From a virus, in the IMG/VR virus record IMGVR_UViG_3300037961_004809, positions 1-38,112 of that record: DNA of 38,112 nucleotides; one strand, written 5' to 3'. Under the pieces are notes generated by a model, which saw nothing but the letters and a program-made list of their open reading frames with translations, was not told the DNA's origin and made no database searches. This document shows, in pieces, positions 11,008-35,172 of this stretch. The translations under genes and the position numbers were made by a program. Positions within the stretch are counted from its first letter, which is position 1; every line of letters begins with the position of its first letter.

Positions 11008-11338
11008 GATATGGGGTAAAACAGAAATGATCCATAAAAATGGCGTCATGGAGTTTCACCGAATAGAATTTAATAAAGGATTTAAATGCTCTGAACACGA
11101 GCATAGATTTAAATGGAACGGATTTTTTGTAGAATCCGGTAAAATGCTTGTCAGAGTATGGCAAGAAGATCAAGGTCTTGTTGATGAAACAATACTTGAA
11201 GCAGGTGATTTTACTATGGTAAAACCTGGTAAGATACATCAGTTTGAAGGTATTGAAGATGGTGTGGCTTTTGAATTATATTGGGCTGAGTTTAATCACG
11301 ATGATATAATCAGAAGAACAGCTGGTACTAAGATATGA
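10994..11338 (+). CDS. Small cupin-domain protein
   Basis: A 114-aa single-domain cupin. Motif 1 is visible as SEHEHRFKWNGFFVESGKM (His-x-His and a later Glu) and motif 2 as AGDFTMVKPGKIHQFEG (His). This is the metal-binding double-stranded beta-helix found in mannose-6-phosphate isomerase-like, dTDP-sugar isomerase-like and many unassigned enzymes. It lies directly before the KdsB-like gene with a 4-nt overlap, so a role in sugar isomerisation or modification is reasonable but not shown. Length is typical of stand-alone cupins. Confidence 0.75.
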   Translation: MKAGKIWGKTEMIHKNGVMEFHRIEFNKGFKCSEHEHRFKWNGFFVESGKMLVRVWQEDQGLVDETILEAGDFTMVKPGKIHQFEGIEDGVAFELYWAEFNHDDIIRRTAGTKI

Positions 11339-13348: not shown

Positions 13349-14001
13349 GAGTATTTATAGGGCATGATAGCAGATACCCAGACGCTACTAAAGCATGCTA
13401 CAATTCGATTAAAGCATATAATAAAAATATTAAAGTAATACCTTTATATAAACACAAGTTAATAGACAAAGGTATATATGGTAGAAAAGATATACAAGGT
13501 GAATCAACAGAGTTTTCATTTACTAGATTTTACGTGCCACTTATGTCTGCATACAAAGGTGTATCTATGTTTTGTGATAATGATTTTATATTTAGAGACG
13601 ATGTTGCTAAAGTATTTGATTATTTAAAAAACGAAGATTTAATAGCTTGTGTAAAGCATGAGTACTACGATGTTAAAACAACTAAAATGAATGGTTTAGT
13701 TAATAAAATGTACCCAAGAAAAAATTGGAGTTCATTAATGATATTTAACAACGAAAAGTTAAAAGACGTGTTAACAAAAGAATATTTAGATAACGCTAGT
13801 GCTGCTGATTTACATCAGTTAGCTTGGGCTGAAAATAAAATAAGTGAAATAGATAAAACTTGGAATCATTTAGTAGGTGAACAACCTTATTCTAAAAAAA
13901 ACCCAGCTAAAGGTATACACTTTACAAATGGTGGACCTTGGTTTGAAGAATATAAAGACTGTCAATTTGCAGATGAATGGAGAGATATATTAAAGAGTTA
14001 G
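13345..14001 (+). CDS. GT-A glycosyltransferase, GT8-like
   Basis: A 218-aa protein starting MRVFIGHDSRYPDATKACY, the nucleotide-sugar strand-helix of GT-A enzymes. It continues TEFSFTRFYVPLMSAYKG and the metal-binding D78-x-D80 (MFCDNDFIF). A C-terminal WNHLVGEQP and HFTNGGPWF contain the His and Gly expected of a GT8-like second metal/diphosphate site. It is likely to transfer a sugar from a nucleotide donor; donor and acceptor are unknown. The protein is cytoplasmic, with no signal or membrane segment. It overlaps kdsA by 4 nt and the following transferase by 25 nt, so it probably acts in the same pathway. Confidence 0.78.
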   Translation: MRVFIGHDSRYPDATKACYNSIKAYNKNIKVIPLYKHKLIDKGIYGRKDIQGESTEFSFTRFYVPLMSAYKGVSMFCDNDFIFRDDVAKVFDYLKNEDLIACVKHEYYDVKTTKMNGLVNKMYPRKNWSSLMIFNNEKLKDVLTKEYLDNASAADLHQLAWAENKISEIDKTWNHLVGEQPYSKKNPAKGIHFTNGGPWFEEYKDCQFADEWRDILKS

Positions 14002-14801
14002 TAAAAGATAAATCAGTTATTTTTGTAGGAAACTCTGTTGAAATAATGGAGCATAAAAATAAAGAATTTATAGATAGTCATGATATAGTTGTTAAATTTG
14101 GTAGAGCATTAGAAGCTACTAAAAAACAAGAAGAATCTTTAGGTTCTAAATGTGATATATGGATAACAGGACAATTTAGATCTCATGCTTTTAAAAAGAA
14201 AATAGAAGAATTTAAACCTGGTGGTAAGTTTGAAAAAACTAGTATACTAGTAAATAGATCAAGAGGTAATTTTAAGGTAAAAGAATTTGTTATTGAGAAG
14301 CATATATGTCAAGAGTTGATAAAGCATGGTTACAGACAAATGTATACTGATGAAGAAATAATAGATACCATGAAAGTTTTTGACATGGACGTATTAACGT
14401 CAAAGCAAAGACCTTCTACTGGTTTTTTAGCAATAGCTTGGTTTGTAGAAAAAATAAAGACTTATAAAAGTCTTTCAATAATAGGTTTTGATTTTTTTGC
14501 TAAATCGACAACAACAAGAAGAGTTGGTCACAATAAAAAAACAGACAAAGAAGAGATAAGCGCTCACGATCCACATAGCTGGCATCTACCAATATACGCT
14601 AGACCTCATAGTGCGCATTCACATCATCTTGAAGAACAATTTGTTTCTTGGTTAACAAGAACTGGACAATTGACTTGGCATGTGTTAAGTGATTTGAAAG
14701 AAAATAAAATTAAGTATACAGGTTGGGCGAATAATATGCCTATGGTTATATGCTCACCTGAGCGTACTAAATACTATAAGAAAAGAATAAAAGCTACTTA
14801 G
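13977..14801 (+). CDS. GT29-like (sialyltransferase-fold) glycosyltransferase
   Basis: A 274-aa protein with motifs of GT29 sialyltransferases and their bacterial/phage relatives. SVIFVGNS (13-20) is followed by IDSHDIVVKFGRA, as in the L-motif. PSTGF (146-150) and LSIIGFDFF correspond to the S-motif region. A His-rich HSAHSHHLEEQF near 211-222 would supply the general base. GT29 enzymes use CMP-sialic acid. With kdsA and a CMP-Kdo synthetase-like gene next door, the natural donor here may be CMP-Kdo or a similar 3-deoxy sugar acid (inference). No signal peptide. Last gene of the plus-strand arm; its stop overlaps the stop of the converging minus-strand gene. Confidence 0.72.
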   Translation: MERYIKELVKDKSVIFVGNSVEIMEHKNKEFIDSHDIVVKFGRALEATKKQEESLGSKCDIWITGQFRSHAFKKKIEEFKPGGKFEKTSILVNRSRGNFKVKEFVIEKHICQELIKHGYRQMYTDEEIIDTMKVFDMDVLTSKQRPSTGFLAIAWFVEKIKTYKSLSIIGFDFFAKSTTTRRVGHNKKTDKEEISAHDPHSWHLPIYARPHSAHSHHLEEQFVSWLTRTGQLTWHVLSDLKENKIKYTGWANNMPMVICSPERTKYYKKRIKAT

Positions 14802-16435: not shown

Positions 16436-16873
16436 TTAATTATTTTTTCTAGGGTTTACAATTACTGGATTTGGTGGGTTTGGTGGATTTACTACTGGTC
16501 TATCTGGCGGTCTCGTAATAGTTGGCGTATTGTTATTATTGTTATTATTATAATTACTATTACCATTATATGAGGGTTTAGGTACGTTATACAAAGCTGG
16601 GTGATAATATGGTTTATCCCATCTAGTGTAGTAACCACTATATGGTCTATACCAGTCATATCCTACTACATTATATATTACATTTGGTCTTATATCTTTA
16701 ATAGGTATTTTTAACGTATCACCTTCTTCAGTTAACGCTAACACATGAGTTACTTGAGGTCCTTTGCTTTGATAATAATATGGTGAACAGCTAGCTAACA
16801 TAGCAAACAATAATATTGCCAATAGTACTGTTATTGATATTACTCTACCTAAGTCTCTTTGCTCATCTGTCAT
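16436..16873 (-). CDS. Pro/Asn-rich lipoprotein, possible outer spanin
   Basis: A 145-aa protein. Residues 11-28 form a hydrophobic signal (VISITVLLAILLFAMLAS) followed by Cys29 in a lipobox LASC, so it is likely a lipoprotein. The mature part has Tyr-rich stretches (YYYQSKG, YDWYRPYSGYYTRW), then an Asn run (NYNNNNNNN) and a Pro-rich tail (RPPDRPVVNPPNPPNPV). Small Pro-rich lipoproteins beside a peptidase and holin are often outer spanins that fuse membranes at lysis, but this one is longer than usual and lies away from any inner spanin. It starts in a 4-nt overlap with the M15 peptidase gene. Confidence 0.6.
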   Translation of the reverse strand: MTDEQRDLGRVISITVLLAILLFAMLASCSPYYYQSKGPQVTHVLALTEEGDTLKIPIKDIRPNVIYNVVGYDWYRPYSGYYTRWDKPYYHPALYNVPKPSYNGNSNYNNNNNNNTPTITRPPDRPVVNPPNPPNPVIVNPRKNN

Positions 16874-17331
16874 ATTACCATATACTTTGTTTTACCGTTT
16901 TCACGATAAGCTTTTAAACACCTTTTTCTATTTTCACCTGGATTAACATAGCTTACATGCACCCAAGCTGGATTACTATCATCACCAAACTCCCATATCA
17001 TTTGATCAAACTCTAAGTTTTCTTTAATAAACTTATACATATCACAATTTTTCATGTGACCGAATGTATCGTCTATATCCATAGCTTGACCATGACAATG
17101 TTGTGATTTTGCTGATCCGCCAATTGCAGCGTTAAGTTCTGGTCCGCGATAAAACGAATTTATCTTTATAGGACCTCCTACGTGCATTCTAAGAGGCTCA
17201 AATACTTTTTCCGCCAATAGCTTCATGTTTTGTAAATGAGCATCAGAGGGATCATTATCTAAACCAAGTCTCAAAGCGGTTATACTGTATACACCTTCTT
17301 TGTAACTTACATGTTTACTTATTTTATCCAT
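16870..17331 (-). CDS. Peptidase M15 family endolysin
   Basis: A 153-aa protein of the M15/VanY-like (Peptidase_M15_3) type. Signature SFYRGPELNAAIGG, then SxHxxGxAxDI at 76-86 (SQHCHGQAMDI) with zinc ligands H78 and D85, and C-terminal H125 in AWVHVSY. Known members cleave the L-Ala-D-Glu or D-Ala-D-Ala bond in peptidoglycan. No signal peptide, so a holin or similar is needed to release it, which fits the holin-like gene downstream. The gene lies between a tiny Trp-rich protein and the lipoprotein, each overlapping by a few bases. Probably the phage endolysin. Confidence 0.88.
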   Translation of the reverse strand: MDKISKHVSYKEGVYSITALRLGLDNDPSDAHLQNMKLLAEKVFEPLRMHVGGPIKINSFYRGPELNAAIGGSAKSQHCHGQAMDIDDTFGHMKNCDMYKFIKENLEFDQMIWEFGDDSNPAWVHVSYVNPGENRKRCLKAYRENGKTKYMVI

Positions 17332-19756: not shown

Positions 19757-22700
19757 TTAAAAAATTCTCTCTCTTTTTCCTGTTGTCGACGCTTTCTTTT
19801 TCTTTTTCTTTTTGTTTTTATTATCATCAATACCTATTTCCCAGTCTTGCCAACCACCTAATAAAGCTAGTCTTTCCCATGTTTCTAAATCATCTGATGT
19901 AGCGTTTACAACATTATTTGTTTTCTTAACTAATCTATCAAGTGGTAAATTAGTTGTCGCTGATATAACATTTGCGCCTGCTAATAACGCTGGGTTATCT
20001 ATAGAAAAACCTTTTTCTTTCATTTCTTCTTTTTCCCATTGTAACGATCTAGCAGCTTGATTTATCTTTGATAGCTTAGATGATATAGGTGGTGATATTC
20101 TAGTTAGTTCATAACCTATTTTTTCATACTTTGGATTAGGTTTTTCTGACTCGTTCATTATTCTTATTATAGCGTTTTTACCTACTGATACAAACGCACC
20201 AGCAATACCAACACCTCTTAGTAATGAATCAGCCATACCATTTGCGATGCTTTGATACTTTTCTTGTTCATCTTCTTCTTCAACATCACCAAAGCTAATT
20301 GCAAATATAGCTTGTTGCAACGCGTTAAATATTAGGTTTTGTACAGCTGCATAATAAATTATTTTAGAAGTATTAGTTTTCCAATCACCTCTTCTGTTTT
20401 TAAGATCTGAAGCAGCTTTCTTTATTAGTCTAGCATACTGCATTGGTGTATTACCAAATGCTAGTATTATTCTACCTAATGGTCCAGCTTGTTGAGCAGA
20501 TATTCTATCAGGTCTACTAGACTGCTGTGACTCTTCAGCTATTTCTCTAAAATCTTTCATAGCTTGTAACTCTGCAGCTTTTTGATCTAGACCTTGTTTC
20601 TTTAATCTGTTTATTCTATTTCTATAAAAACTTGCACCACCTGAAGCAATAGCAAAACTATCAGCTATTTGTGTAGGTAAAAATCCAAATTCTAGTAATT
20701 TACTTATAACACCTCTTGGACCACCTTCTCTTGCCATGTTAGCAATATCTGCTTCATTAACGTTTATCTGTAAACCTCTACGTCTGTCAACTAAAAATTC
20801 AGAGTTCATTAATGTCATAAAGTCTTTCCAATACTGTGGTTGATTAGCAAAAGCTTTACCAGCAGCGAATATATTATTATCTCTAAAATTAATAAAGTTA
20901 ACAGAAGATATTGTTTGTAGTAACGCAGATCTTGTATTAAAGAACATGATAGTACCAATACTATTAGTTAACCAGTCTGTTACTTTACCAGTTAATGAAT
21001 CACCTTGGAAACTTCTGTTTCTACCAGTTCTCATACGTTCAAGTATACCTTCTAAAGCTTGTCTATGTGCTAAGCCAAACGCAGCTTCCATTTTATTTAA
21101 ATTCTTTTCAGAGAATATAACATCTACATTTCTTTGCCACTCTGCTAAATGTTTAGCTCTTTTTGTAGTGCCTAAGTTATCCATTAAATCAGTAGTGACA
21201 GTACCTGCTAACCAACTGCTTTTTGGAGCAGAATAACCATCATCTTTATTTATAGCTATTAACTGATCACCAAATGCTTTATAAACGGGTTTACTTTCAA
21301 CATGATCTGTTAATAATTTTAAATCAGCTTTGCTTAACCCAGGTATTGGCATGCCTTGCTTGTTCCATATATAAACTCTTACAGCTTGTTCGTTTGTGTA
21401 AGGTTCACCTGGTATTTTCTTTTGTAAGTTTTTAGGTACTACTTCTAGTTGATTCTTCAACGCTTTGTAATCGTTCATCAAAGATGTACGCTCTCTTGAT
21501 ATATTACCCATAGCTGTTGCATACGGATCTAATAAATTCTTTTTATACCAAGCCATCTGGTTATCACCAAGTTTACCTTTAGCTAATGTATTGTAAAGTA
21601 ATCCTACAAAATCTTCAGCTGATGGCGGTATGAAAAATGTAAATCTACCTTTGCTTGATCCAACTGCTTTTGCTTTTGCTTTGCTATACACTTTGTCTGC
21701 TCCAATACCTGTTTTAGCTTCTATAATATCGTTAAAGTCTCTATCTAGCTTTTGTATTCTACTTTCGTATGCTAATCTTGATTTAGATTTTACATCTAAT
21801 ACTTCAAGAGCATCTTGTACAGCTTTAACATTTTTATATACATCATCAGTAAAATAAAAATCATTATAACCGTTAGCTGCTTTACCAATAACCCAGTTTG
21901 CTTTTGCTTGTGGTGATCCGTCTTCTAAACCAGTTATATTTTCTAACGGTACTTCTAGTCCTATACCTTTTAAAAAGTCGTATATAGCTTGTGCTGATGC
22001 TTGTGGTCTAGCTGTTAGCACAAACACATCTTTATTACCAAACTTATCTATTGCTTTTTTAAGCTTAGCGGCTAATGGACCAGGTTTACCGTCAATAACT
22101 TCGTTAAACTCGCTAAAATCAAATTCAGCGCCTTGATCTTGTAATTTACCATGCTGTTTTGCAAACTCAGCAGGTGTTATTTTTTTAACACTACCATTAG
22201 GCATGTTAACAATAATTTTACTTTTTGTTGTAGCTAACGTGTCGTCAAAATCAAATACACTTATACCTTTTTTAGGTGCGTTAATATCTTTAGCGTTACG
22301 TAGAGCTTTATCATAGTTATTTAAATCATTTACTAAACCATCGTTGTTTGTTGATTTACTGTATTTAGTTTGATTTTTTACAAAAGCTTTAGATTTACTA
22401 GTTTCTATGTTTTGATTTGTAGCAAAACCTTTAGCATCAATACCAAACTCTTGTACTATATTGTTACCGTTTGATAAAATAATATTAGAAGGATCTATGC
22501 CAGCTACATTTACGTTAAAATATCTAGCCCAAACGTTATCTGTTATCTGCCAACCTTCTGGGGTTGTAGAAGTATAATTAAATGGTTTACCATCAGGTTT
22601 AAATCCTTTTAACTTTTTATCATCTGCTTTTGACAATAAACCTTGTTGATAATTTTTTTGAATATTAGCAAAGTTTTCGTTTACTTTTCCATCTAATGCG

Positions 22701-25700
22701 CTTGTAAATAAATACTTAGCAACTAAACTAGCTGGTAATGTGTGTTCTTCAACTTTACCATCAACTAAATTTTTTGAATAAAAAGTTATTGGAGCTGAAG
22801 TTCTTACAAAATGACCCATACCTTGACTAGTGCTTGACAGCATTGCAGCTATAAATCTAGCATTTTTAGGATCTTGTTTTATAAGTTTTTCAAAAACATT
22901 AAATATCTTTTTTAAACCTTTTATACTAGCTTTTTGTCTATCTTGAAACTCTTTTTTACTTAATTTATTTTCAATGTTTGTGTAACTTTCTCTAGTTACA
23001 GCTGCTTCTATATCTGTATCAGGTTTAGCAAACTTACTACCCTCTATTGTAGCGTTTACATCGCTTATACTAGTAAAATAAAAACCTCTTTTAGGCGCAG
23101 AAACACCAGCATTAGCAAAAGTTCCTACTGTAAAAAAAGACTCAGGTAAAAGACCTGTTAATTTTTTAGTAAACGTTTTAAATTCTTTAACATCATTTTC
23201 GCTTTTAGGATCTAAAGCTACTTGATCAATTGCTTTTAATATACCTTTCCAGTTTTTATTTTCAGCGGCAAACTCAGTAGGGTTTCTTTTAAATGACTGA
23301 TCTTTCATAAATACATTAAAAGCATTTTTTATTCTTTTACTGTATACAACTCTAGTTTTTTGCGCAGCTGTTATATTAGCCGTTTGCTTTTTAACCGCTA
23401 CAGGATCTTTAGCTGTTTTAGTTTGACCTTCTAAAACTCTTTGTGCTGATGATAAACTAGCTTGTTGTGCGTATGTTTTAGCTACACCTTTTAATAACTG
23501 ACCAATATCTCTATTATAGTTATTTAGTTCACCTGGTGGTGTAATACCTAAATCATCTTTTAGTTTGTTTATTGTTTCTACAGTTGGGTTTCTAAACTCA
23601 GGTTTTAATTCCCATATAGTTGGTTGTGATGTTAAACCTTTTGATCTTCTATTTGTTTTATTGTAAAAATAATTAAGTACTTTACCTTTCATACCTATAG
23701 ATAAACCACTTACATTTCTGTCAACATCTATGTTTTCACCTAGCTCATTAATATCAGCATCTGTTTCACTAACGTTTTCTTCAGGTAATAGTTTTATAAA
23801 CTTGTCAGCGTTTTGACCAACTCTAAAAAACTCCTGTATATTACCAGCTTCAGAGTTTTCAGGTATACCATCTGTTATTTTCTTAGCGTATGTTAAGTTC
23901 TTTGTGCCGTCTGTTATTTTGTTAGCTGGTATGTTAAATATTTTACTACCTATTTCACCAGTATTATTATTTATAACTTCTTTAAATGTATCACCTTCTT
24001 TTACTTTTACAGATTTAACTAGATCAGCTTCATTTACTTTATCTAACTTTAATACATTGAGTTTACGTGACACTCTTGTTTGTGTTGTTGGTGTTTCTGT
24101 TTGTGTATCAGCTATTTGTTTAGTAGACTGATCTATTCTAGTTTCCACAGCTCTTCTAGCTGACTCTATAGCTAGTTCTTTATTAGCATCTAGCTTAGCA
24201 AAATTAGTATTAGCAAAAACAAACTCACCAAATGTTTTATTAAACGCTGGATCAAAGTTCATTAATCTACTTTGTATATTTCTTATAGTAGCGTTAGCTT
24301 GCTCAACACTAGTTGATCTAGACTTAACATAGTTACTTATAACACCGTTTGGCTCTGTAGCAGCAAAAGCATCACCAAATACTTTAGGATCGTTTTGAAA
24401 CTGCTCTTTAGTTTTTATATTACTAGGTATTATATTATTAATAGCATCTAACGCGCTTTTTGACTCTCTTATTTGAGTTGTTTGATCTGCTTGTGCGTCA
24501 GATATTAAAGCACCTGTAGCAGCTTCTTGTGTAAGTTTTGCTTGTGCTTGTGTCAATTGACCTTTTACAATACTATTATTATAGTCTTTTATAAAGTTAA
24601 ATACATCTCTTGAAGTGTTAAACTTTATATCAGATAAACCTGCTTGTTGTAGTATTCTTCTAACTATATCACCTATTTTAGTAAATACAGTTTCGTTATA
24701 TTTAATTTCACCGTTAGCTACAGCATCAGCAAATAATGTTAACGTTTCTTCAGCTTGTATCGCTGTTGGATCGTTTTTATAAGCATCTAGTCTAGTTTTA
24801 AAATCACTGTCTTTTAATATATCAGTATCTATTTTATTTATTTCAACTTTAAGTGCTTCTGATAAAACTTCAGCTGCTTCTGGGTTTTTACCAACAGTAT
24901 TAAATAAAACACCGTGTAATAACTCATGAGCAGCTACATTTACTGCTGCATCTTCTGCAGCGATTTCTTTATTTATAACGATTGTTTGTTCACCTGATTC
25001 AAGGTCTTGAAGTATAAATCCTTGTTGTGACGATGCTTTCTTTTCTAGGTTTTTGTCTTTAGCAATTTTATCGGCAGCATCTTGATTTTCTGCTATTTCT
25101 ATGTTTATCTTATCAAGTCCACTGACTATATCAGTAACTTTTTCTGTTGTAAGATTTAATTGATTGTCAGAACTTATTTTTGCTAGTCTAGCATCAACTT
25201 CTTTTAATCTATTTATTTCAGCATCGACTATAGCTTTATTAGCACCAGCTAATTCTATTTTGCCAGCTAAAGCATTTCTTTCTTTTAATAACGTTACAGT
25301 TTCTTGTATTAAATCTTTACCGATGTTTAGGTTATCAGCTAATGTTACAGCAGATTGTGTATCATTAAAATTCTTTTTTATTCTATCACGCTCTTCTACA
25401 GTTATTTCTCCATTGTTTACTTTTGACTGTAATTCAGATTCTAAAACCATGCCAGAGTTTTCATTTCTAGCTATATCTATTACATCTTGGTTTATATTAT
25501 CATTTTGAAAAGCAGAGTTAACATCATTTACGTTTGTGTTATCTAATGTTTTTCTAACACTTTTTCTTTTAACACCAACACCTATTTCACCACCAGCTCT
25601 AAGTTTACCACCAACAGCACCACCTATAAGTATATTGTCTAGTATTTCATAATCATCAAATACTGAATTAAATACTTCGTCAAAAGTATTAGCATCGCCT

Positions 25701-26638
25701 ATGTAAACAGCTCTAGCTGCTTTACTTATAGCAGCTGACGTACCTTCAGATAAACCTTCTTTACCGTAATCTTTACCTATTCTTAAAAATATATCTCTTA
25801 ATCTTCTTTCTACAACTTCTACGCCTTGACCTTTTAAGTTTTTAAATACACTTTTACCAATACCTCTAGTTACTGTTTCTAAAGCACCTTCTGCCATACC
25901 AACAGTACTAGAATATATTAAATTATTAAGATCAACTTTTTTACCTTCCTTTATTGCTTCTGTACTTGATTGCGCAGCGCTACCACCTATTACTGATGGT
26001 ATACCTACACCAGGCACCATTGCTTGTAAAACAGACGGTATAGCGCCAACAAACTCAGATAATGTTCTTGATGCAGCTTCCGGTACCGCTGTTATATCAC
26101 CTTTAGCAGCCGCTATGTAAGCTTCTGATAAAGATTTTTCATATTGAGGTAAAGACTCGTTTAATTTATCAATTTTACCTTGTAAATTTTCAGATAAATC
26201 TAGTCCTTCTTGACCAAATCTAGTAATACTTTGAGCTCCAGGAGCACCAATAGACATTGCAGCTTCATACTTTTGTATAAACTCGTCTTGTTTTTCAGGT
26301 TCAAGGTTGTTATAATATTCTTTTAAAGGATTATCATCAGGTAAACGTTCCATACGAGCAACAAATTTACCTCTATTTATAAATGCTGGTAGTTGACTCA
26401 ATGAACTTCCAACTTGTAATACTCCTCTTCCAAATTTTTTAGCTAAATTAATTGGATTTATTTCTTCAAAAAAACTACCTTCTTCTTCTTTTATATCATC
26501 ACCTATCCTATCAACCTTTACTTCAGTTAAACCTTTTTCTCGCAGTTTATTTATAAGCTCATCAAATGACAAGTTTGCATTATCTGCGGCTAACTGTAAT
26601 TGTTCATCAGTAAACCTGTTACCGTCTAGCTCCCACAT
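19757..26638 (-). CDS. Giant ejection/internal virion protein with HExxH and HAD motifs
   Basis: A 2293-aa protein, last and largest of the three-gene ejection set, placed like T7 gp16. The N-terminus (MWELDGNRFTDEQLQLAADN) is of a kind common in marine-phage large virion proteins. A zincin site lies at 571-575 (AAHELLHG). A HAD-type phosphatase part lies at about 1458-1615 with all four motifs: DFDDT at 1463-1467, VLTARPQ, a Lys near KANWV, and FTDD with D1598/D1599. Long helical stretches and a few hydrophobic segments fit a protein that crosses the host envelope. No lytic transglycosylase motif seen. The C-terminus is a Lys-rich tail with a run of seven Lys. Known role of the class: packed in the capsid and ejected with DNA. 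The enzymes' targets are unknown. Confidence 0.8.
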   Translation of the reverse strand: MWELDGNRFTDEQLQLAADNANLSFDELINKLREKGLTEVKVDRIGDDIKEEEGSFFEEINPINLAKKFGRGVLQVGSSLSQLPAFINRGKFVARMERLPDDNPLKEYYNNLEPEKQDEFIQKYEAAMSIGAPGAQSITRFGQEGLDLSENLQGKIDKLNESLPQYEKSLSEAYIAAAKGDITAVPEAASRTLSEFVGAIPSVLQAMVPGVGIPSVIGGSAAQSSTEAIKEGKKVDLNNLIYSSTVGMAEGALETVTRGIGKSVFKNLKGQGVEVVERRLRDIFLRIGKDYGKEGLSEGTSAAISKAARAVYIGDANTFDEVFNSVFDDYEILDNILIGGAVGGKLRAGGEIGVGVKRKSVRKTLDNTNVNDVNSAFQNDNINQDVIDIARNENSGMVLESELQSKVNNGEITVEERDRIKKNFNDTQSAVTLADNLNIGKDLIQETVTLLKERNALAGKIELAGANKAIVDAEINRLKEVDARLAKISSDNQLNLTTEKVTDIVSGLDKINIEIAENQDAADKIAKDKNLEKKASSQQGFILQDLESGEQTIVINKEIAAEDAAVNVAAHELLHGVLFNTVGKNPEAAEVLSEALKVEINKIDTDILKDSDFKTRLDAYKNDPTAIQAEETLTLFADAVANGEIKYNETVFTKIGDIVRRILQQAGLSDIKFNTSRDVFNFIKDYNNSIVKGQLTQAQAKLTQEAATGALISDAQADQTTQIRESKSALDAINNIIPSNIKTKEQFQNDPKVFGDAFAATEPNGVISNYVKSRSTSVEQANATIRNIQSRLMNFDPAFNKTFGEFVFANTNFAKLDANKELAIESARRAVETRIDQSTKQIADTQTETPTTQTRVSRKLNVLKLDKVNEADLVKSVKVKEGDTFKEVINNNTGEIGSKIFNIPANKITDGTKNLTYAKKITDGIPENSEAGNIQEFFRVGQNADKFIKLLPEENVSETDADINELGENIDVDRNVSGLSIGMKGKVLNYFYNKTNRRSKGLTSQPTIWELKPEFRNPTVETINKLKDDLGITPPGELNNYNRDIGQLLKGVAKTYAQQASLSSAQRVLEGQTKTAKDPVAVKKQTANITAAQKTRVVYSKRIKNAFNVFMKDQSFKRNPTEFAAENKNWKGILKAIDQVALDPKSENDVKEFKTFTKKLTGLLPESFFTVGTFANAGVSAPKRGFYFTSISDVNATIEGSKFAKPDTDIEAAVTRESYTNIENKLSKKEFQDRQKASIKGLKKIFNVFEKLIKQDPKNARFIAAMLSSTSQGMGHFVRTSAPITFYSKNLVDGKVEEHTLPASLVAKYLFTSALDGKVNENFANIQKNYQQGLLSKADDKKLKGFKPDGKPFNYTSTTPEGWQITDNVWARYFNVNVAGIDPSNIILSNGNNIVQEFGIDAKGFATNQNIETSKSKAFVKNQTKYSKSTNNDGLVNDLNNYDKALRNAKDINAPKKGISVFDFDDTLATTKSKIIVNMPNGSVKKITPAEFAKQHGKLQDQGAEFDFSEFNEVIDGKPGPLAAKLKKAIDKFGNKDVFVLTARPQASAQAIYDFLKGIGLEVPLENITGLEDGSPQAKANWVIGKAANGYNDFYFTDDVYKNVKAVQDALEVLDVKSKSRLAYESRIQKLDRDFNDIIEAKTGIGADKVYSKAKAKAVGSSKGRFTFFIPPSAEDFVGLLYNTLAKGKLGDNQMAWYKKNLLDPYATAMGNISRERTSLMNDYKALKNQLEVVPKNLQKKIPGEPYTNEQAVRVYIWNKQGMPIPGLSKADLKLLTDHVESKPVYKAFGDQLIAINKDDGYSAPKSSWLAGTVTTDLMDNLGTTKRAKHLAEWQRNVDVIFSEKNLNKMEAAFGLAHRQALEGILERMRTGRNRSFQGDSLTGKVTDWLTNSIGTIMFFNTRSALLQTISSVNFINFRDNNIFAAGKAFANQPQYWKDFMTLMNSEFLVDRRRGLQINVNEADIANMAREGGPRGVISKLLEFGFLPTQIADSFAIASGGASFYRNRINRLKKQGLDQKAAELQAMKDFREIAEESQQSSRPDRISAQQAGPLGRIILAFGNTPMQYARLIKKAASDLKNRRGDWKTNTSKIIYYAAVQNLIFNALQQAIFAISFGDVEEEDEQEKYQSIANGMADSLLRGVGIAGAFVSVGKNAIIRIMNESEKPNPKYEKIGYELTRISPPISSKLSKINQAARSLQWEKEEMKEKGFSIDNPALLAGANVISATTNLPLDRLVKKTNNVVNATSDDLETWERLALLGGWQDWEIGIDDNKNKKKKKKKASTTGKRERIF

Positions 26639-26644
26639 ATTTTA

Positions 26645-28663
26645 TTAATTTATACCTAATTGCTGTTCGTTGTCTATTTGCTTTAGAATATTAGCTAAAA
26701 GATCTTGAGCATCGCCTTTTGGCTCAGGTGTTTTTCTATTAGTTTCACCAAATGTAAAATCAAATGCTTCAACACCAGGTTCGTTACCATCCATAAAACT
26801 TCTCATTATTTCTTTTACCATAGATTTTTTACTAGGTGTTGTAATACCATATGTTAAAACATCTACAAGTGTGTTAAATCCATATTCTGATTTTTTACCT
26901 TCTTTTACCATTGGTATAGCTTTTGGTAGTTTAGCTCTAGCAGGATCAATATCCTTACCATACTCAATATTAAATATTTTGTTTACAGGATCAAACTGTA
27001 TTGTCTTTACGTGAGGTAGGTATTGAGATAAATCAGGATACTCAATGAAACTGTCTCCGTGTTTATATTTTTTATATTCTTGAAGTATTGCTTTTTCATC
27101 TTCAGTCATTGTTGCATCTGGATCTTTTGCTTTTCTTATAATTTCATTTAAAAATGTTTCTGGATTTTCGTTAAATAAACCTATCCAATATTTTTGTCTA
27201 CCACTATCAAGTCTAGCAAATATATTCGCGCCACTACCTCTACCTTTCATTTTCTGAATATCTTCACTAGTTACTTCTTGAAGTGTACTATCATCTGGAT
27301 ACTCATTAAGTTTATCATGAGGTTTTATACCTTCTAAAAATACAGCTTTTAATTCATCATAAAGACCTCTGTCTACATCTTTACCGTTACCTAATTTAGT
27401 AGTGCCATCAGCTGTGTCATCATCTTCTTCAGGTTTAGTTTCTCTTCTGTACTTACTAGTTAAACCGTCACTATATATTTCATCATATAGTTTTTCAGCA
27501 ACCATTTCGTTTTTAAGATCATTTAATCCTTTAATAGTTGCTGGAATATCTTCTTCTTTTATACCTAACTCTAATAACAGGGATCTGTTTAAGCTAGTGT
27601 CGTTGTGTTTTGTTTCTAATAAATCAGCTACAATTTCTTTTTTCTTAACATCATCTGTTTCTTCATCTACAAATGTTACTAAAGTTTTTAGAAAAGAATT
27701 TTTAGATCCAGCTTTAGTAAGCATGTTAAACCTTTTAGGCGTTCCAAAATCAACACTATTATTAAATATATCAGTAATCATTGTTTCATCACTACCATCA
27801 CCTTTAACAATATTGACATACTCTCTTACATCATTTCTTAAAAAATCTTCAGGTGTTATAGCAAAACCTTTAGAGTTTCTAGGCACGTTACCATCTGCAT
27901 ATTTTTGATTCATTCTAGTTGTATACTCACCTTTTAAACTCTCTAACACACCGTTTTCACCACTGTAAGCTTCATCATATCTAGCTTTAAGCTCTGGGTT
28001 ATTATTACCTATATATGTTGCTAATAATTTTGAATCAACATTAATAAATTTTTTAGACTCATCCATGCCTGGGCGCCACTTTGGATTTTCTATTCTAATA
28101 TTCATTTCAAAGTCATTAGTACCTACTTTATTAAATGAAAATTGTTTTTCTCCAGTTGAGTCAAACTTTTTAAATCCGTTTCTTGCTGCTTGAACAACTG
28201 CTGCAAACTCTAAATATGTATCAGAGCTTTTATTTAAACCACCTTTTTCATCTAAGTCATTTAACATGCCAAATAAAGAATTTAAAGGCTGTGCTGCAGC
28301 TGTAAAGTTTTGTGCAGCTAAATCTAAATCTGTTTTAGATCTTCTTTCTTGATCAAGATTTTTAGCAAATAAACCAAGTCTTTTAGCTCCACCAAGATCA
28401 ACTCTTGTAGCTTCATCGTAAAATTGATTTACTGTTTTTAATATTTCAGCTTGTGTACCAGCTGCTAAGTCTTTTAAATTAGCAATATCTTGCTTCATTA
28501 AGTCAGATCTTACCTGAACATCTGATTCATATTCTTTTTGTTCTGCTTCTATTTTATCATAAAAGTCTTGTGCACCTTTATAAGCAGCTGTAAAAGCTTG
28601 TTGAAAGCTTCTGTTTATTAACGTGTAATCTTCTTTGAAAAATCTTGGATTTCTATAACTCAT
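26645..28663 (-). CDS. Internal virion/ejection protein, T7 gp15-like by position
   Basis: A 672-aa, mostly helical, highly charged protein. The N-terminus (RFFKEDYTLINRSFQQAFTA, then long helices with Gln, Glu and Lys) is typical of internal core proteins. No enzymatic motif seen. It lies between the 351-aa gp14-like and the 2293-aa gp16-like genes with 2-6 nt spacing, which is the T7 gp14-15-16 order. Inferred to form part of the ejected channel. Sequence identity to T7 gp15 cannot be judged by eye. Confidence 0.65.
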   Translation of the reverse strand: MSYRNPRFFKEDYTLINRSFQQAFTAAYKGAQDFYDKIEAEQKEYESDVQVRSDLMKQDIANLKDLAAGTQAEILKTVNQFYDEATRVDLGGAKRLGLFAKNLDQERRSKTDLDLAAQNFTAAAQPLNSLFGMLNDLDEKGGLNKSSDTYLEFAAVVQAARNGFKKFDSTGEKQFSFNKVGTNDFEMNIRIENPKWRPGMDESKKFINVDSKLLATYIGNNNPELKARYDEAYSGENGVLESLKGEYTTRMNQKYADGNVPRNSKGFAITPEDFLRNDVREYVNIVKGDGSDETMITDIFNNSVDFGTPKRFNMLTKAGSKNSFLKTLVTFVDEETDDVKKKEIVADLLETKHNDTSLNRSLLLELGIKEEDIPATIKGLNDLKNEMVAEKLYDEIYSDGLTSKYRRETKPEEDDDTADGTTKLGNGKDVDRGLYDELKAVFLEGIKPHDKLNEYPDDSTLQEVTSEDIQKMKGRGSGANIFARLDSGRQKYWIGLFNENPETFLNEIIRKAKDPDATMTEDEKAILQEYKKYKHGDSFIEYPDLSQYLPHVKTIQFDPVNKIFNIEYGKDIDPARAKLPKAIPMVKEGKKSEYGFNTLVDVLTYGITTPSKKSMVKEIMRSFMDGNEPGVEAFDFTFGETNRKTPEPKGDAQDLLANILKQIDNEQQLGIN

Positions 28664-28665
28664 AA

Positions 28666-29721
28666 TTATATTTGTTTAAACTCTACGTCTAGTTGTGAGT
28701 AATCTACTAAATCGAAACCATCTATATCTTTTTTAACAGCTGATTGTGGTATTTCATCAGACATTACACCTTGATAAGTTTTGTTTCCGTTTATGTATTT
28801 AAATGAATATATTTTTAAACCGCTAGGTGAAAGTCTTAAAAACTTAATATCTTTTTTAAGTCGTCTATCACTTCCAAAATATCCTGAAGCACCACTTCCA
28901 AATGAAGACGTATCGTAATCAAGGTCAAAATTAAAACCACTACTTGCTGAAGTTGATGTTCCTGATGCTCCGCTAAAACCACTCATGATAGTTGAGAAAG
29001 GATTTCCACCACCGCCACCAGATGAACCAGCACCTAAACCAAATGCCTTAGCTAATGATCCTTTACCGCCAGCTAAACCACCCAATGCAATACCACCTAA
29101 GCTACCTAATGCGCTAGCAAAACCAGCACGTGAAGCTTGTTGAGCACCTTCCATTTTCATTCTAGCTTGATCTAACAATGCTGCAGATCTATCTTCGTCT
29201 CTAAACTGTCTAGCTTCTCTCATTTGCTGTGTAAACGAAGTACCTCTAATTCTTAACGCATCGGCTTGCGCTCCTATTTGTGCTCTTGCTACTTCAGCTT
29301 TTTGTTGACCCTGAGCTCTAAGCATTTGACTTTGTATTTCTTGTTTTTCAATACTAGCACCAATATCTCTTTTGCTTCTTAATGCTGCTTGCGCTAAAGC
29401 AGTAGCTCCACCTGCACCAGCACCTGTGGCTCTAAGAGTATCTAGCGTGTTTGCTAAAGCAACATCAGCTTCTTCTGCTTGAAACTCAGCAGCCTGTGTA
29501 GCAACACCAATGTTTGCAAACGGATTTGTTATATCGCCAGATCTATCTTTAGCTAATGCACCAAGATCATTTAAACCTTGTCTCTGCGCTTTTAAATTAT
29601 TGAAAGCTCGCTCAGCTTGTCTATATCTTTTCTGTGCTGCTCTAGCTCTTTTTTTAGCGCCGAAACCTTGTATTAAGCCACCTACTATATTAGTAGCAGC
29701 TCCTATTAAAGCCATGCTCAT
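28666..29721 (-). CDS. Internal virion protein (T7 gp14-like) with C-terminal S74-like motif
   Basis: A 351-aa protein. The front starts with a hydrophobic Gly-rich segment (ALIGAATNIVGGLIQGFG) and a basic helix (KKRARAAQKRYRQAERAF), then Ala/Gln-rich helices, as in gp14-type ejection proteins. A Gly/Ser-rich linker (about 225-280) leads to SDRRLKKDIKFLRLSPSG, YSFKYINGNKTYQGVMSDEI and a tail ending LDVEFKQI. This end resembles the start of an S74 (intramolecular chaperone) domain, normally seen on tail spikes, but only about 65 residues are present. The chaperone's Ser/Lys catalytic pair cannot be confirmed. It may be a relic or a docking element. Confidence 0.75.
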   Translation of the reverse strand: MSMALIGAATNIVGGLIQGFGAKKRARAAQKRYRQAERAFNNLKAQRQGLNDLGALAKDRSGDITNPFANIGVATQAAEFQAEEADVALANTLDTLRATGAGAGGATALAQAALRSKRDIGASIEKQEIQSQMLRAQGQQKAEVARAQIGAQADALRIRGTSFTQQMREARQFRDEDRSAALLDQARMKMEGAQQASRAGFASALGSLGGIALGGLAGGKGSLAKAFGLGAGSSGGGGGNPFSTIMSGFSGASGTSTSASSGFNFDLDYDTSSFGSGASGYFGSDRRLKKDIKFLRLSPSGLKIYSFKYINGNKTYQGVMSDEIPQSAVKKDIDGFDLVDYSQLDVEFKQI

Positions 29722-29736
29722 ATTACTATAATTTTA

Positions 29737-31071
29737 TTAGACAGTAACTTCACCATTAACTGAAAATAATTCAGCTTTTGGATCATTGGAACTTTCGTTA
29801 GGTTCCCAATACTGCATTGTTATGTTTGAAAAATATCCTTTTAAACCAGATGTTTGAAAGTGGCTATTGTCTTGATAAAAATCAACCGCCTTATTTCTTA
29901 ATTCACTGTAATAAAAACTTTCTTTTTTAATAAAGCCTACAGTTTCACCTGTTCCTATTGTTGTACCTTCTTTAGGTATTTCGTATGCTGTGTTTAGGTC
30001 ATCATAATTACCTGATGCTCCGTAAACAGCGTAACCACCTGTTGAAAAATTAGTCATACCCCAACCAGTAGTTCCCTCATAATCAAGGGTTAAAAATGTT
30101 TTGACTGATGATGGTTCCATGTTAAATAGAAGTTTAACATATGATGGATCGTTATATGTTGCATCATAAAAATTACCTCTTGCAACTGTTTCATCATGTT
30201 GTCTATATAAGTTTGATAAATGATATGTGTAGAACTCATTTTTTAAACTTACACCGTGTGTTGCTTTGTATGTGTAAAAACTAACCCAACCGCCAGCTCT
30301 TTCGTCAAATGCTAATGTGCCATAAGTTGTTATGTCACGAGTGAGAAATGCGTTAGATGCTTCTAAACCTCCATCAATACCTGTTCCCTCTAATGTTATA
30401 ACATATTGTTTCTTTTGTTCATCAAACGCTCCATATATAGTATCACACACTTTTAGGTTATCTTTAAACCAGTCTTTCATACCAGCATCTGATATAGGAG
30501 TTATACCATCTGTTGATAATCTACATATAACGCCTCTTTGCTTATCTGCAAAGTATTTTCTGTTACCAAAGTATGCAAAACTTTCAGGGTTTTTACCAAT
30601 ACCATATTTACCAGCGTAAGGCGTTATTTGACCTATAACATTAGCGCCTGATGCTGTTATTGGTTGTCCTTCAGCTGTAAATATAGCGTCTTTATCTATT
30701 AAAGCTCTATTAACTTTATTTTCTTGAAATATATTTAAGTTGGTGTCTTCTGCGTGTAGTTTTTGTATACTACCATTATTAATATCAACAGCTCTTGTTA
30801 TTACTTGACCTGATGGAAATTGATTTAACTCATTAACACTAGTCCTAGCATTGTATATACCACTATATATCATTGCGTTTTCTCTTACTCTACCTTTATA
30901 TTCTTCATCTGTTATAAAAGCTCTTGCACCAATATCCATTTGAATACCATTATACTCACCTTTTATTCTATTCTCTTCAATATGATAAACACCAGGTGCT
31001 TCTGACGATCCGCTTCTACCACCTTGTATTATTATGGCGTTTGAAAATGCTAATTCTATTACTGCTCCCAT
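29737..31071 (-). CDS. Virion stabilization/nozzle-associated protein
   Basis: A 444-aa beta-rich structural protein. Motifs such as YSGIYNARTSVNELNQF, SIQKLHAEDTNLNIFQENKV, GIGKNPESFAYFGNRKYFAD and LKNEFYTYHLSNLYRQHD match what I know of the C-terminal part of large stabilization/tail-nozzle proteins of marine and crAss-like podoviruses. There the N-terminal part is homologous to the 1363-aa protein encoded just before. Here it stands alone, with its own ATG 9 nt after the previous stop. Likely part of the tail nozzle or portal vertex. Confidence 0.7.
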   Translation of the reverse strand: MGAVIELAFSNAIIIQGGRSGSSEAPGVYHIEENRIKGEYNGIQMDIGARAFITDEEYKGRVRENAMIYSGIYNARTSVNELNQFPSGQVITRAVDINNGSIQKLHAEDTNLNIFQENKVNRALIDKDAIFTAEGQPITASGANVIGQITPYAGKYGIGKNPESFAYFGNRKYFADKQRGVICRLSTDGITPISDAGMKDWFKDNLKVCDTIYGAFDEQKKQYVITLEGTGIDGGLEASNAFLTRDITTYGTLAFDERAGGWVSFYTYKATHGVSLKNEFYTYHLSNLYRQHDETVARGNFYDATYNDPSYVKLLFNMEPSSVKTFLTLDYEGTTGWGMTNFSTGGYAVYGASGNYDDLNTAYEIPKEGTTIGTGETVGFIKKESFYYSELRNKAVDFYQDNSHFQTSGLKGYFSNITMQYWEPNESSNDPKAELFSVNGEVTV

Positions 31072-31080
31072 ATTTTAATT

Positions 31081-34000
31081 TTATGCTATTGGACAATTAT
31101 ATGTACTTGCTGATATAACTCCAGAGCTTGAAGTTGCATGTCTAGGATTTAAACCAGACACTGTAAATGTTCCTGCTGCTACTGGATTATTTAATAATTT
31201 ATCTGTATGTACTATGTTACCAGCGTTTACACCACCACTTTGACTAGGATCTGCTCCACCACCACCACCAGTGGAAGATTTAACATAATAAGTTGTAGCT
31301 GGTTGACTGTATTTTATAGTACACACATCATTCATAGCTCCAGCTAAATAATGACCGTCTATAGCTACAGAAACTCTTGGAAATATTGTAAATGTTGTAG
31401 CGCTCACACCAGTTGGTGATGTTAAACCGCCGTTATCCGTAAATACTACATTTATTGCTTTTCCTGATATATTATCACTGCCAAAGAACCCACTAAAAGT
31501 AAATGTGTTATTTGTTCTTATTGAAAAAGTACCGTCTGTTAAAGATGGATTAATATCAAACATACTAGCGTTTGTTCCACTTAACGCGGCTGTCATACCT
31601 GTTTTATTTAACGCTGAGTTTGCAGATCCATTAACAGCTGTTATATTACCTACTTGATAACCTTTTCCACCACTACCGTAATTACTATGATTATCTATAA
31701 ATCCATTAGCGTTGGTACCAACAGGATTACTATTTGCTACACTAACTGTTATTGTTTGTAGCGAAGAAGCATTATTACTTTGTGTTGCTCTTAACAAAAT
31801 AGTATAATCATCAGAACCATCATTACTAAAAGCAAATTGATGTCCTACTTTTAACATAAATCTAGGATCAATATTACCTGATGCTCCAGCTTGTTCGTTA
31901 GTTATAGCTACTATATTATGACTAGAATCTACTTGAACAACACACTGTCTTTGATTAGTAATGTTTGTTGAGTGATTATCATAAAACCATATTTTATAAA
32001 AACCAGCGCCAGTGTTTGCTATTGATGTTATAGCGCTTGCTTCGTTTTCAAGATTAGTACCTACTGATGACAAAGCTAAAAGCTCTGTATATTTAAATCT
32101 AACTAATGTTCCAGTGCTTGTTAAATCAACAGCATTAGCAGCGCTTGCTGTAGACTGTTTAGCAGAGTGTTTAACTACTGTAATATCATCTTCTTCATCA
32201 ATTTCAAACTTACCTAAATCAGCACCATCAGTTTCATCATTATTTGTAACAGACATTAATTGAAAGTTTGATATAGTATAACCTTGATTTGTTGGATCAT
32301 CTACAGTCGCTGTTAATTCACCAATTTGTTTTTCTAATTTACTATTATTTGTATAATCAAAACTTTCTGGAAAATCAGCTGTTAAAGCTGCTGAGTAACT
32401 TTCTCTTTCAGTTGTATTTGTTATTCTTATGTTAGTTGGTCCAGAAGAAGCTACTTCACATTGATCATTTAAATCTTGCACAGTGCCACATGTTGCTGTT
32501 TCATAGTATATATCTAAATTTGATTGAAAAGGTTTTGTTTCAAAAACAGTTAAACCTTTGTCTTTAGCTCTTGGGTAACCAAATGGTCTATCATTTAATG
32601 GATCATCTGTTGTAACTATAAGATCACTTGCTTGAGTAAACTCACCAATTACGTTTACTATTTCATTTCTTAAGTTTGGTATTTCAGCTACTGTTGGATT
32701 TTTCTCTGCATCATGTAAAAAGTCGTATACTCTTTCTCTATCTGGTAAACCTCTAGCTTCACGCATACCGTTAGTAAAAGGTCCGTTTTTAGCATTAGAT
32801 ATGCTAAATAAACCTTGTGACTTAGCATCACCAATACTTATAACATCAATGTACTCTTGACCATCAACACCCATTTTAGAATCAAAATGATTACTTGCGT
32901 TTGCATTATTTATTTGTACAACTTTAGGATATAGCTGTACTTCTGAACCAGCAACACCATCTTTAAACTCGTCAATATCTATAACAGATCTAGGTACTTT
33001 ATTTATATTATCACCATGCAGTGTAAACCACGATCTTGATTTTGAAGTTTCGTTATATTGACCAGCGATTACTTGATCTTGATCATCATTATCACCGTTT
33101 GGATTTGTTGTTACAGTTTTACCAGCTGTAACCGACCAGTTGTTCATTGGGTGCTGAGTGTAAACATTGTAATATTCTTGCTCTGTTTGCTTAATTACAA
33201 CTTTCCATGCAAACCAACCATTTGGATTATTTTCATGTTGATGTGTGCTATTGCCTGGTACTATTCTAGAGTCTTGAAAATCCACATTTAAAGCTTTACC
33301 ATATGTTTTAAATGTATTTTCCCAGCTACCACCTGTATTAGCGTTATATGGATCTGTTTCAGCTATTACTGTATGTGTATCAGATAAATCATCAGTTTTA
33401 TAAGTTGATGGTATTACTGGTGACATTCTGCCAAAAACATCCATTAATACTACACCTGCTTGATAGGTTCTTCTTTGTTTTACTGTATGAAATATATGTG
33501 TTTGTGTGTTGTAATAAAAATGACCACTTGTAACTCCTTTTTCTACATTACCTTTGTTATCGCTTGATAAAAAGAAGCTTATACCTTTATTACCAGCTTC
33601 ATCATTAGGTATATCATAACCTGATGTTATATTTCCATAAACTACTCTATTACCAACTATTTCTTGAGCTTTTGCTCTAACCGGAACATCGTCAGAAACC
33701 CTTATTAATTGTTTTTCTGGTAAAACTTTAAATGGTTCTTTTGCTTTATATGTATACTCTATAGCTTGTCTATAACGAGGTTCTCCTGGCTTTGGTGTTA
33801 CTGTGTATACACTAAAAGGTTTAGGATCTTCGTTTTTAGCAGCATCAATATTTATAGTATCTACAAGTTTAACAGATATACCATTTGATTCTTTTAATAA
33901 TATTTCTATATCTTTTATTCTAAGACCTTTGTCGTTTTCATAAACTGTAGTAACTTTAGCGCTATTTGTTTGATGTTCTGTAAAAAGAAAATCTGTATCT

Positions 34001-35172
34001 ATAGTTGGTAAAGGTATACGCATGATAACTTTGTCATAAGCGTTTTGCATTATAGGAAGAATACCTGTTTCAACAACATTTTGTGAAGATATATTTACTT
34101 TAGGCTCGTTTGTAGTTGCGTTTTGAGCTGTGTCAGGAGAAAATTTAAGCACACCAGCATTTAAAGGTTTAAATACAGGTTGTGTAAATGGTGATATTAC
34201 AGAATACGTACCGTCTTTATATTTATATCTATATGCAAATCTAATAAATCTTTCTTGCATATAATCAGACTTAACACCTATATTAGAATTTGGATTAGAT
34301 GTAATTAATGTTTGACCATCAGCTGTATTAGGATAAGCAGTTAATGTTATCGTAGCGTTACCACCACCTCCTGTTATTGTTATTACGTCACCTACACTAT
34401 AACCATAACCTATATCATCATCTGATATTGTAACTGTTGTTACAGCGCCAGCGTTAACAGCTGTTATGTTTACCTTTAAACCAGTACCAGTTCCACCCGT
34501 AGTCGCAATATCGTTAGCCACAGAATAACCACTACCACCTACTAAAGTATTAAATGCGACAGCTATAGTGTTTGGCTTGTTTAACATTGGCGCTAAATAT
34601 GGTGCTACTTTTGCAACTGATATTTTTTCTTCTTGCGCGTCTACATAGTAACTTGTATTATTTCTAGCTAAGTCTATATCTATAACCCTTGGTGAGTTGT
34701 AGTTGTCTGTAAAATATAAATAATTACCTATAGTATTTACACCTGTTATAGGGTGTGTTTTTGTAAAGTTTAAATACAAACCTGAAGCTAAAACTTCTTC
34801 ATTGTTGTTACCTTCTTTCATAACAACTTTCATTCTTCCTTTAGTTTGGTTTAACGCCGCTCTATGCATTGTGTGTATGTCAGCGTTTGGAGTAGCGCTT
34901 GTGTAGGTAGTTATAAACCAAAATATTCTATCATTAGAAACATCTACATAAGAACCTATTGTAGCCATTTCAAAGTTTCCACCCACATCTGTAGTTTCTT
35001 GAGTTGTAAGTTTTTTATTACCTCTAATGTTTTCAATAGCACCAACATCTGAATCTTCACTTGTAGCTATAGATATATTTTGAGCTTCTCTGTATTCACC
35101 ACCTGGAACAAGTCTTTCGTCCAGGTCTTTATTCATACGAGCTTTAGTAAAAATATTTTTTATCTTCGGCAT
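31081..35172 (-). CDS. Large tail nozzle/stabilization protein
   Basis: A 1363-aa structural protein. The N-terminus IFTKARMNKDLDERLVPGGE, then YREAQNISIATSEDSDVGAI is the signature of the large stabilization/nozzle protein of marine and crAss-like podoviruses. A later IGNYLYFTDNYNSPRVIDID fits the same family. At about 205-280 lie two Gly-rich beta repeats (GSGYSVANDIATTGG, GYGYSVGDVITITGG) that look like an inserted domain. The C-terminal 400 residues are Ser/Thr/Asn-rich and beta-like, with a cadherin-like pattern (FAFSNDGSDDYTILLRATQ) that may bind the host surface. Placed like T7 gp12. Confidence 0.78.
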   Translation of the reverse strand: MPKIKNIFTKARMNKDLDERLVPGGEYREAQNISIATSEDSDVGAIENIRGNKKLTTQETTDVGGNFEMATIGSYVDVSNDRIFWFITTYTSATPNADIHTMHRAALNQTKGRMKVVMKEGNNNEEVLASGLYLNFTKTHPITGVNTIGNYLYFTDNYNSPRVIDIDLARNNTSYYVDAQEEKISVAKVAPYLAPMLNKPNTIAVAFNTLVGGSGYSVANDIATTGGTGTGLKVNITAVNAGAVTTVTISDDDIGYGYSVGDVITITGGGGNATITLTAYPNTADGQTLITSNPNSNIGVKSDYMQERFIRFAYRYKYKDGTYSVISPFTQPVFKPLNAGVLKFSPDTAQNATTNEPKVNISSQNVVETGILPIMQNAYDKVIMRIPLPTIDTDFLFTEHQTNSAKVTTVYENDKGLRIKDIEILLKESNGISVKLVDTINIDAAKNEDPKPFSVYTVTPKPGEPRYRQAIEYTYKAKEPFKVLPEKQLIRVSDDVPVRAKAQEIVGNRVVYGNITSGYDIPNDEAGNKGISFFLSSDNKGNVEKGVTSGHFYYNTQTHIFHTVKQRRTYQAGVVLMDVFGRMSPVIPSTYKTDDLSDTHTVIAETDPYNANTGGSWENTFKTYGKALNVDFQDSRIVPGNSTHQHENNPNGWFAWKVVIKQTEQEYYNVYTQHPMNNWSVTAGKTVTTNPNGDNDDQDQVIAGQYNETSKSRSWFTLHGDNINKVPRSVIDIDEFKDGVAGSEVQLYPKVVQINNANASNHFDSKMGVDGQEYIDVISIGDAKSQGLFSISNAKNGPFTNGMREARGLPDRERVYDFLHDAEKNPTVAEIPNLRNEIVNVIGEFTQASDLIVTTDDPLNDRPFGYPRAKDKGLTVFETKPFQSNLDIYYETATCGTVQDLNDQCEVASSGPTNIRITNTTERESYSAALTADFPESFDYTNNSKLEKQIGELTATVDDPTNQGYTISNFQLMSVTNNDETDGADLGKFEIDEEDDITVVKHSAKQSTASAANAVDLTSTGTLVRFKYTELLALSSVGTNLENEASAITSIANTGAGFYKIWFYDNHSTNITNQRQCVVQVDSSHNIVAITNEQAGASGNIDPRFMLKVGHQFAFSNDGSDDYTILLRATQSNNASSLQTITVSVANSNPVGTNANGFIDNHSNYGSGGKGYQVGNITAVNGSANSALNKTGMTAALSGTNASMFDINPSLTDGTFSIRTNNTFTFSGFFGSDNISGKAINVVFTDNGGLTSPTGVSATTFTIFPRVSVAIDGHYLAGAMNDVCTIKYSQPATTYYVKSSTGGGGGADPSQSGGVNAGNIVHTDKLLNNPVAAGTFTVSGLNPRHATSSSGVISASTYNCPIA

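Follow-up and report, generated by a model that had tools for sequence, protein, structure and literature searches.

The stretch of DNA analysed here, positions 1 to 38,112 of the IMG/VR virus record IMGVR_UViG_3300037961_004809 (38,112 nucleotides, hereafter the window), carries on its minus strand a gene for a giant protein of 2293 amino acids, whose reading frame starts with an ATG at position 26638 and runs to position 19757 with internal stops absent. The protein contains a zincin-like metallopeptidase domain, a HAD-like phosphatase domain and a conserved C-terminal domain, and its gene lies behind genes for crAss-type virion proteins (Table 1). An earlier reading of the letters alone (the sequence-only reading) had implied that the fusion of a zincin with a HAD is unusual. 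A search for relatives reveals instead a large family of marine phage proteins in which this fusion is the usual layout: 40 loci came from a first scan of IMG/VR, a scan with a HAD profile listed at least 574 related stretches, so that the family is common among viral contigs, and in 96 of the 103 near-complete HAD-bearing relatives an HExxH precedes the HAD. Single-sequence searches of the window protein against Pfam, PHROGs and NCBIfam gave no significant match, and tblastn against cultured phages gave a sole, N-terminal match to Maribacter phage Panino, both results marking the sensitivity limit of such searches rather than absence. Since relatives reach about 70 kb, the window record is probably a fragment, and a ligase or other partners of this phage may lie outside its 38 kb.

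Table 1. Features of the giant protein and of the genes upstream of it (positions in the window; residues of the giant protein)
Feature	Residues	Position	Strand	Basis
Giant polyvalent-type protein	2293 aa	19757..26638	-	ORF listing, translation; 40 IMG/VR relatives in first scan
N-terminal region, variable; most hydrophobic segment 197-217	1-540	25019..26638	-	hydropathy, dN/dS
Zincin-like metallopeptidase domain	541-735	24434..25018	-	alignments; model pLDDT 85; VIA-align
HELLH zinc/catalytic motif	571-575	24914..24928	-	H-E-H invariant, 62 rows
Predicted third zinc ligand	E631	24746..24748	-	invariant, 24 and 62 rows
Mosaic block swapped between near relatives; unnamed domain (~1200-1440) plus HAD	~1090-1640	21719..23371	-	identity profiles
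HAD-like phosphatase domain	~1455-1616	21791..22276	-	alignments; model and VIA-align to 5uj0
HAD motif I	D1463-F-D1465	22244..22252	-	both Asp invariant, 57 rows
Hairpin, site of relatives' nested P-loop kinase; insert-free in window protein	~1480-1483	22190..22201	-	HAD-profile break
HAD motif II	T1542-A-R1544	22007..22015	-	invariant, 57 rows
HAD motif III	K1579	21902..21904	-	invariant, 57 rows
HAD motif IV	D1598-D1599	21842..21847	-	invariant, 57 rows
Conserved C-terminal domain, mainly helical	1641-2293	19760..21718	-	alignment; fold comparison
672-aa protein of the adjacent upstream gene, counterpart by position of phi40:1 gp100		26645..28663	-	gene order
351-aa virion protein, homologue of phi40:1 gp99		28666..29721	-	28.5% identity, E 1e-6; phrog_6121 virion structural
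crAss-type muzzle, C-terminal part		29737..31071	-	Pfam crAss_MUZ 5.8e-8, crAss_MUZ_C 8.9e-7; gp97 E 2e-45
Muzzle, N-terminal part, gp97 homologue		31081..35172	-	gp97 E 1e-23; phrog_14478
aa, amino acids; ORF, open reading frame; dN/dS, ratio of nonsynonymous to synonymous substitution rates; pLDDT, predicted local distance difference test.

All four HAD motifs that the sequence-only reading had named are present and conserved. Motif I reads DFDDT (1463-1467) and motif II, VFVLTAR, ends at R1544. Because 16% of shuffles of the window protein contain a loose HAD motif set by chance, the motifs alone prove little, and conservation and fold have to decide. In 57 HAD rows, which reach down to 40% identity (HAD plus C-terminal domain), D1463, D1465, T1467, T1542, R1544, K1579, D1598 and D1599 are invariant, and the dN/dS of the HAD region against five relatives is 0.02-0.14; as judged from these alignments the HAD is under strong purifying selection, and its intact, invariant active site suggests a working phosphatase. 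The HAD and the C-terminal domain were modelled jointly (pLDDT 79), and the region is predicted to fold HAD-like as had been proposed, with the four motifs placed on a Rossmann-like fold. Foldseek returned no significant PDB match for this model. Within Foldseek's candidate list, to which VIA-align was applied, the best match is the 3'-phosphatase of T4 Pnkp (5uj0, Z 10.8, root-mean-square deviation 2.5 Å, 120 residues aligned); a second T4 Pnkp entry (2ia5, Z 9.5) is level with Nir2 (Z 9.3), and phosphoserine phosphatase (Z 8.8) and then NagD-type HADs come next. In a comparison of the HAD profile with the PDB, mammalian PNKP chains were the only ones matched, weakly (E 0.38), and the HAD of the relative L011 matches phrog_415, 'polynucleotide kinase' (E 2e-8).

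The HELLH noted by the sequence-only reading is likewise present, together with the downstream glutamate E631. The window protein is poor in histidine, and its shuffles produce an HExxH by chance in 0.16% of cases. Across 24 relatives H571, E572, H575 and E631 do not vary, and a larger alignment of 62 rows shows the H-E-H, the downstream glutamate and one tyrosine to be invariant. Foldseek gave weak PDB matches for the zincin model, none of them significant, and VIA-align on these candidates returned 25 rows, nearly all of which are zincin metallopeptidases of lethal-factor type (Z 5.6), SprT-type, ArdC, CapP, collagenases and BlaR1. The Z values, up to 5.6, are modest, and we base the assignment on the consistency of the match list and the invariance of the ligands instead.

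In 55 relatives the match to the HAD profile is interrupted at position 42/43, in the hairpin after motif I, by a P-loop kinase. The HAD motifs of these proteins are intact, and the P-loop, Asp and lid motifs of the kinase are present; a kinase linked to the phosphatase in the same protein, as in a bifunctional Pnkp, occurs in the relatives only. The nested kinase matches Pfam AAA_33 and Zeta_toxin about equally, as well as phrog_505, 'polynucleotide kinase'; against the PDB its profile retrieves zeta toxin and bacterial Pnkp chains, and it aligns with the kinase of T4 Pnkp over 143 columns (P 3.5e-5). In the literature searched we found no description of a kinase nested inside a HAD. The HAD tree requires at least 5 changes of the nested state and the tree of the C-terminal domain at least 12, the latter count being inflated by block exchange. 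Some members that lack a HAD carry the kinase ahead of the C-terminal domain, and in the relatives L028 and L024/L054 it is located after the zincin instead. In L055 a different insert of about 110 amino acids (residues ~1398-1550) occupies the same HAD hairpin, which thus looks like an insertion hot spot.

Between near relatives the protein is mosaic. Compared with L002 and L004, the flanks are at least 90%, mostly at least 95% identical, and the core of the block is 12-60% identical, the low-identity stretch covering residues ~1090 (core from ~1120) to ~1520 against L002 and ~1085-1640 against L004. By these identity profiles, the swapped block comprises the HAD, whole or in part, together with an unnamed domain. 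For the domain at ~1200-1440, with its conserved E-H-x-x-P, no family match was found. The region around it (22319-23371 on the minus strand, residues ~1090-1440) is highly variable, the E-H-x-x-P being kept in the family consensus; it is apparently also present in HAD-less members, and its dN/dS is near 1 against L004 and L034, estimates that are possibly saturated or misaligned. Among 167 non-redundant proteins, 113 carry a plain HAD, 41 a HAD with nested kinase, and 13 are HAD-less, counts that are not prevalences, as queries with a HAD, with a kinase and without a HAD steered the sampling. In the fetched loci whose downstream frame stays open long enough, the C-terminal domain comes after the HAD; these loci are the nearest matches, and other layouts, e.g. 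a free-standing HAD, are possible. What appears to be new here is that the HAD precedes the same C-terminal domain and, to judge from the alignments, sits in or beside the swapped block.

The C-terminal domain itself is 41-84% identical across 24 rows, and in BFVD its fold recurs at the C-termini of viral proteins that bear the name large polyvalent protein associated domain (LPD) or ART-PolyVal; no named LPD or PolyVal Pfam domain was found in the window protein, and LPD14 was found in one of 19 relatives (E 3e-4). At the other end, residues 100-352 match the giant protein of Panino (31.7% identity over 259 amino acids, E 2e-23), which has this N-terminal module alone in common with the window protein; the dN/dS of the N-terminal region is 0.15-0.65. 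In polyvalent proteins the zincin forms the hub (Iyer et al. 2017, PMC5512222), and the window protein fits this class: like its members it is very large and multidomain, combines a constant zincin hub (HExxH with a conserved downstream Glu) with exchangeable enzyme modules, holds two distinct enzymatic domains, zincin and HAD, to which relatives add the kinase, lies in a late virion-gene context, and ends in a conserved scaffold with the C-terminal fold common to LPD/ART-PolyVal-named proteins. It differs in its HAD phosphatase, which the main text of that survey does not mention.

The upstream genes of the window are ordered homologues of gp94, gp95, gp96, gp97 (split) and gp99 of Cellulophaga phage phi40:1, and the 672- and 2293-amino-acid genes occupy the positions of gp100 and gp101. 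The muzzle (29737-35172, minus strand) is encoded by two genes here and in Panino, versus one gene (gp97) in phi40:1. For the 672-amino-acid protein no sequence match was found, and the C-terminus of the gp99 homologue (SDRRLKKDIK...) resembles what we take to be a peptidase S74-type intramolecular chaperone end. The giant gene thus stands where crAss-type cargo genes stand, after the muzzle and gp99/gp100-like genes, a position shared with gp101 of phi40:1 and phi38:1 and with the cargo of crAss001, which are known as virion proteins from tandem mass spectrometry (MS/MS); gp97-gp101 of phi40:1 are annotated from such proteomics. In crAss001 the muzzle gates the ejection of cargo proteins stored in capsid and tail (PMC10172136). 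Unlike in the window protein, neither a zincin nor a HAD nor the family's C-terminal domain could be detected in gp101, and among the crAss001 cargo are RNA polymerase proteins, not a phosphatase. Since no domain common to gp101 and the window protein was detected, it is by position only that virion status carries over to the latter. The giant structural protein of Flavobacterium phage elemoF (QMP85251.1, 3694 amino acids) lies in the same position and has a related zincin (HEIFH; profile E 3e-9); unlike in the window protein, no HAD was detected in it.

On these grounds, the ejected protein postulated by the sequence-only reading is very probably virion cargo by analogy with gp101, and an ejected role is likely, the label 'gp16-like' being positional only. 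That no peptidoglycan-cutting domain is evident also holds within the Pfam and PHROG searches: lysin matches are absent from the giant protein and the two upstream genes, and an M15 peptidase is encoded by a separate gene (16870-17331). The best explanation of the source is a crAss-related marine podovirus of flavophage type, with the giant protein as its polyvalent cargo protein.

We propose that the window protein delivers with the virion a phosphatase for the healing of 3' ends, with the zincin serving for processing, and assign this reading a probability of about 50%. Going by gene position and the crAss001 model, the protein would probably be stored in the virion, pass through the tail as a threaded chain together with the DNA or ahead of it, and regain its fold in the host. 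The zincin would most likely, to judge from the polyvalent-protein class, cut the giant chain in cis or trans and so release its modules, and the HAD would most likely strip 3'-phosphates from nucleic-acid ends like the phosphatase half of T4 Pnkp. Such ends would arise as host nucleases attack the incoming DNA or host tRNAs; relatives with the nested kinase could heal both 3'-phosphate and 5'-hydroxyl ends, which a ligase would then seal. We consider end healing the best reading because a HAD of Pnkp-like fold and a Pnkp/zeta-like kinase repeatedly occur together in a protein of virion type. Where the sequence-only reading had left the substrate as nucleotides, sugars or RNA/DNA ends, the fold match and the relatives' kinase thus favour ends. 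Repair of broken tRNA or DNA ends by phages is known from enzymes made after infection, e.g. T4 Pnkp with RNA ligase. T4 Pnkp (PseT) shares with the window HAD the motif order, including Ser/Thr-x-Arg in motif II. It acts as a free enzyme inside the cell, and its kinase precedes its HAD in the chain; the window HAD lies instead inside a giant virion-type protein, and in the relatives the kinase interrupts the HAD. For jumbo phages, two HAD families, one of Pnkp type and one called Swiss-army-knife, have been named as RNA-repair phosphatases (PMC7824862).

Several observations weigh against this proposal. The sequence similarity between the HAD and Pnkp is weak, hhalign covering 24 columns only, and a fold match gives no substrate. 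The window protein is without the kinase, and no P-loop was found in it; HExxH is absent from 7 of the 103 near-complete relatives, and the giant proteins of phi38:1 and phi40:1 have neither zincin nor HAD. In favour of the proposal, a small ATP-dependent DNA ligase is encoded on 21 of 22 HAD-bearing versus one of seven HAD-less contigs of at least 60 kb, an association that is strong by Fisher test and not significant once relatedness is counted; as there are only four independent contrasts, all neutral or in the expected direction, we treat it as a hint. RNA ligase PF09414 gave no match over the cut-off in 20 relatives, the search with PF09511 was uninformative, its control being silent, and a search for an NAD-dependent ligase found none. 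T4-style tRNA repair with an RNA ligase is therefore not evident, and, if ends are healed, DNA ends or sealing by a host ligase would be more natural.

Among the alternatives, a HAD acting on a small molecule, such as a nucleotide second messenger, an NMN/AMP-type nucleotide, a UDP-sugar or another metabolite, in order to disarm signalling defence or redirect metabolism early in infection, is possible, if rather unlikely. HADs are versatile in catalysis, the model also matches AphA, e(P4) and phosphoserine phosphatase (Z 7-9), and signal-targeting enzymes have been proposed for polyvalent proteins (PMC7824862); T4 Pnkp, however, scores above all three, and the nested partner in the relatives is a Pnkp/zeta-type kinase. 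That kinase could instead be a zeta-toxin-like UDP-N-acetylglucosamine kinase with the HAD as its phosphatase counterweight, HAD-only members undoing zeta toxins of the host or of rival phages. The equal scores of Zeta_toxin and AAA_33, the second place of zeta among the PDB chains that the kinase profile retrieves (1gvn, E 0.001), a close viral relative named 'UDP-N-acetylglucosamine kinase' and the zeta-like kinases found among polyvalent proteins (PMC5512222) point this way, whereas the HAD resembles a polynucleotide phosphatase and most of the kinase aligns with T4 Pnkp. These points make the zeta explanation improbable, and we know of no HAD that antagonizes zeta. Large virion proteins often recruit enzyme folds, and some members miss the HAD altogether, as would suit a non-catalytic, structural or regulatory HAD; the catalytic residues that are invariant in 57 divergent rows and the low dN/dS render it still harder to credit. 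Finally, KdsC is a HAD phosphatase and the window encodes KdsA and a KdsB-like cytidylyltransferase, but a cargo protein is an odd place for a KdsC completing the Kdo pathway and the KdsA family occurs in one of 20 HAD-bearing relatives, so that we reject this function as very improbable; a link of the HAD to the sugar (Kdo) genes of the window is likewise not supported.

Elsewhere in the window, two unnamed genes (13345-14801) come after the Kdo genes (11335-13348, plus strand; KdsA above the TIGR01362 cut-off); the L004 contig likewise has a gene of the KdsA family, whereas 22 other relatives do not. The phage further encodes a sigma-70 family factor (203-973, plus strand). Among the relatives, L121, L122, L123, L124, L129 and L130 are contigs of metagenome-assembled genomes labelled Woesearchaeota and Aliivibrio that encode the giant phage protein; they are probably phage contigs that were mis-binned.

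Extended to the family, the end-healing proposal holds that in marine crAss-related phages a self-processing giant protein brings into the host a Pnkp-like 3'-phosphatase, in many members with a nested 5'-kinase, which acts ahead of all phage gene expression and undoes nuclease-based defence, a broader claim that we regard as tentative and give somewhat less than an even chance. If true, an end-healing enzyme arriving with the genome would act when the single genome copy is most exposed, and would suggest that nuclease-type immunity is one of the chief pressures on these phages, which are abundant in the sea. The layout of a kinase nested in a phosphatase offers a bifunctional enzyme that can be tested directly, and the swapped block indicates which part of the protein is under local arms-race exchange.

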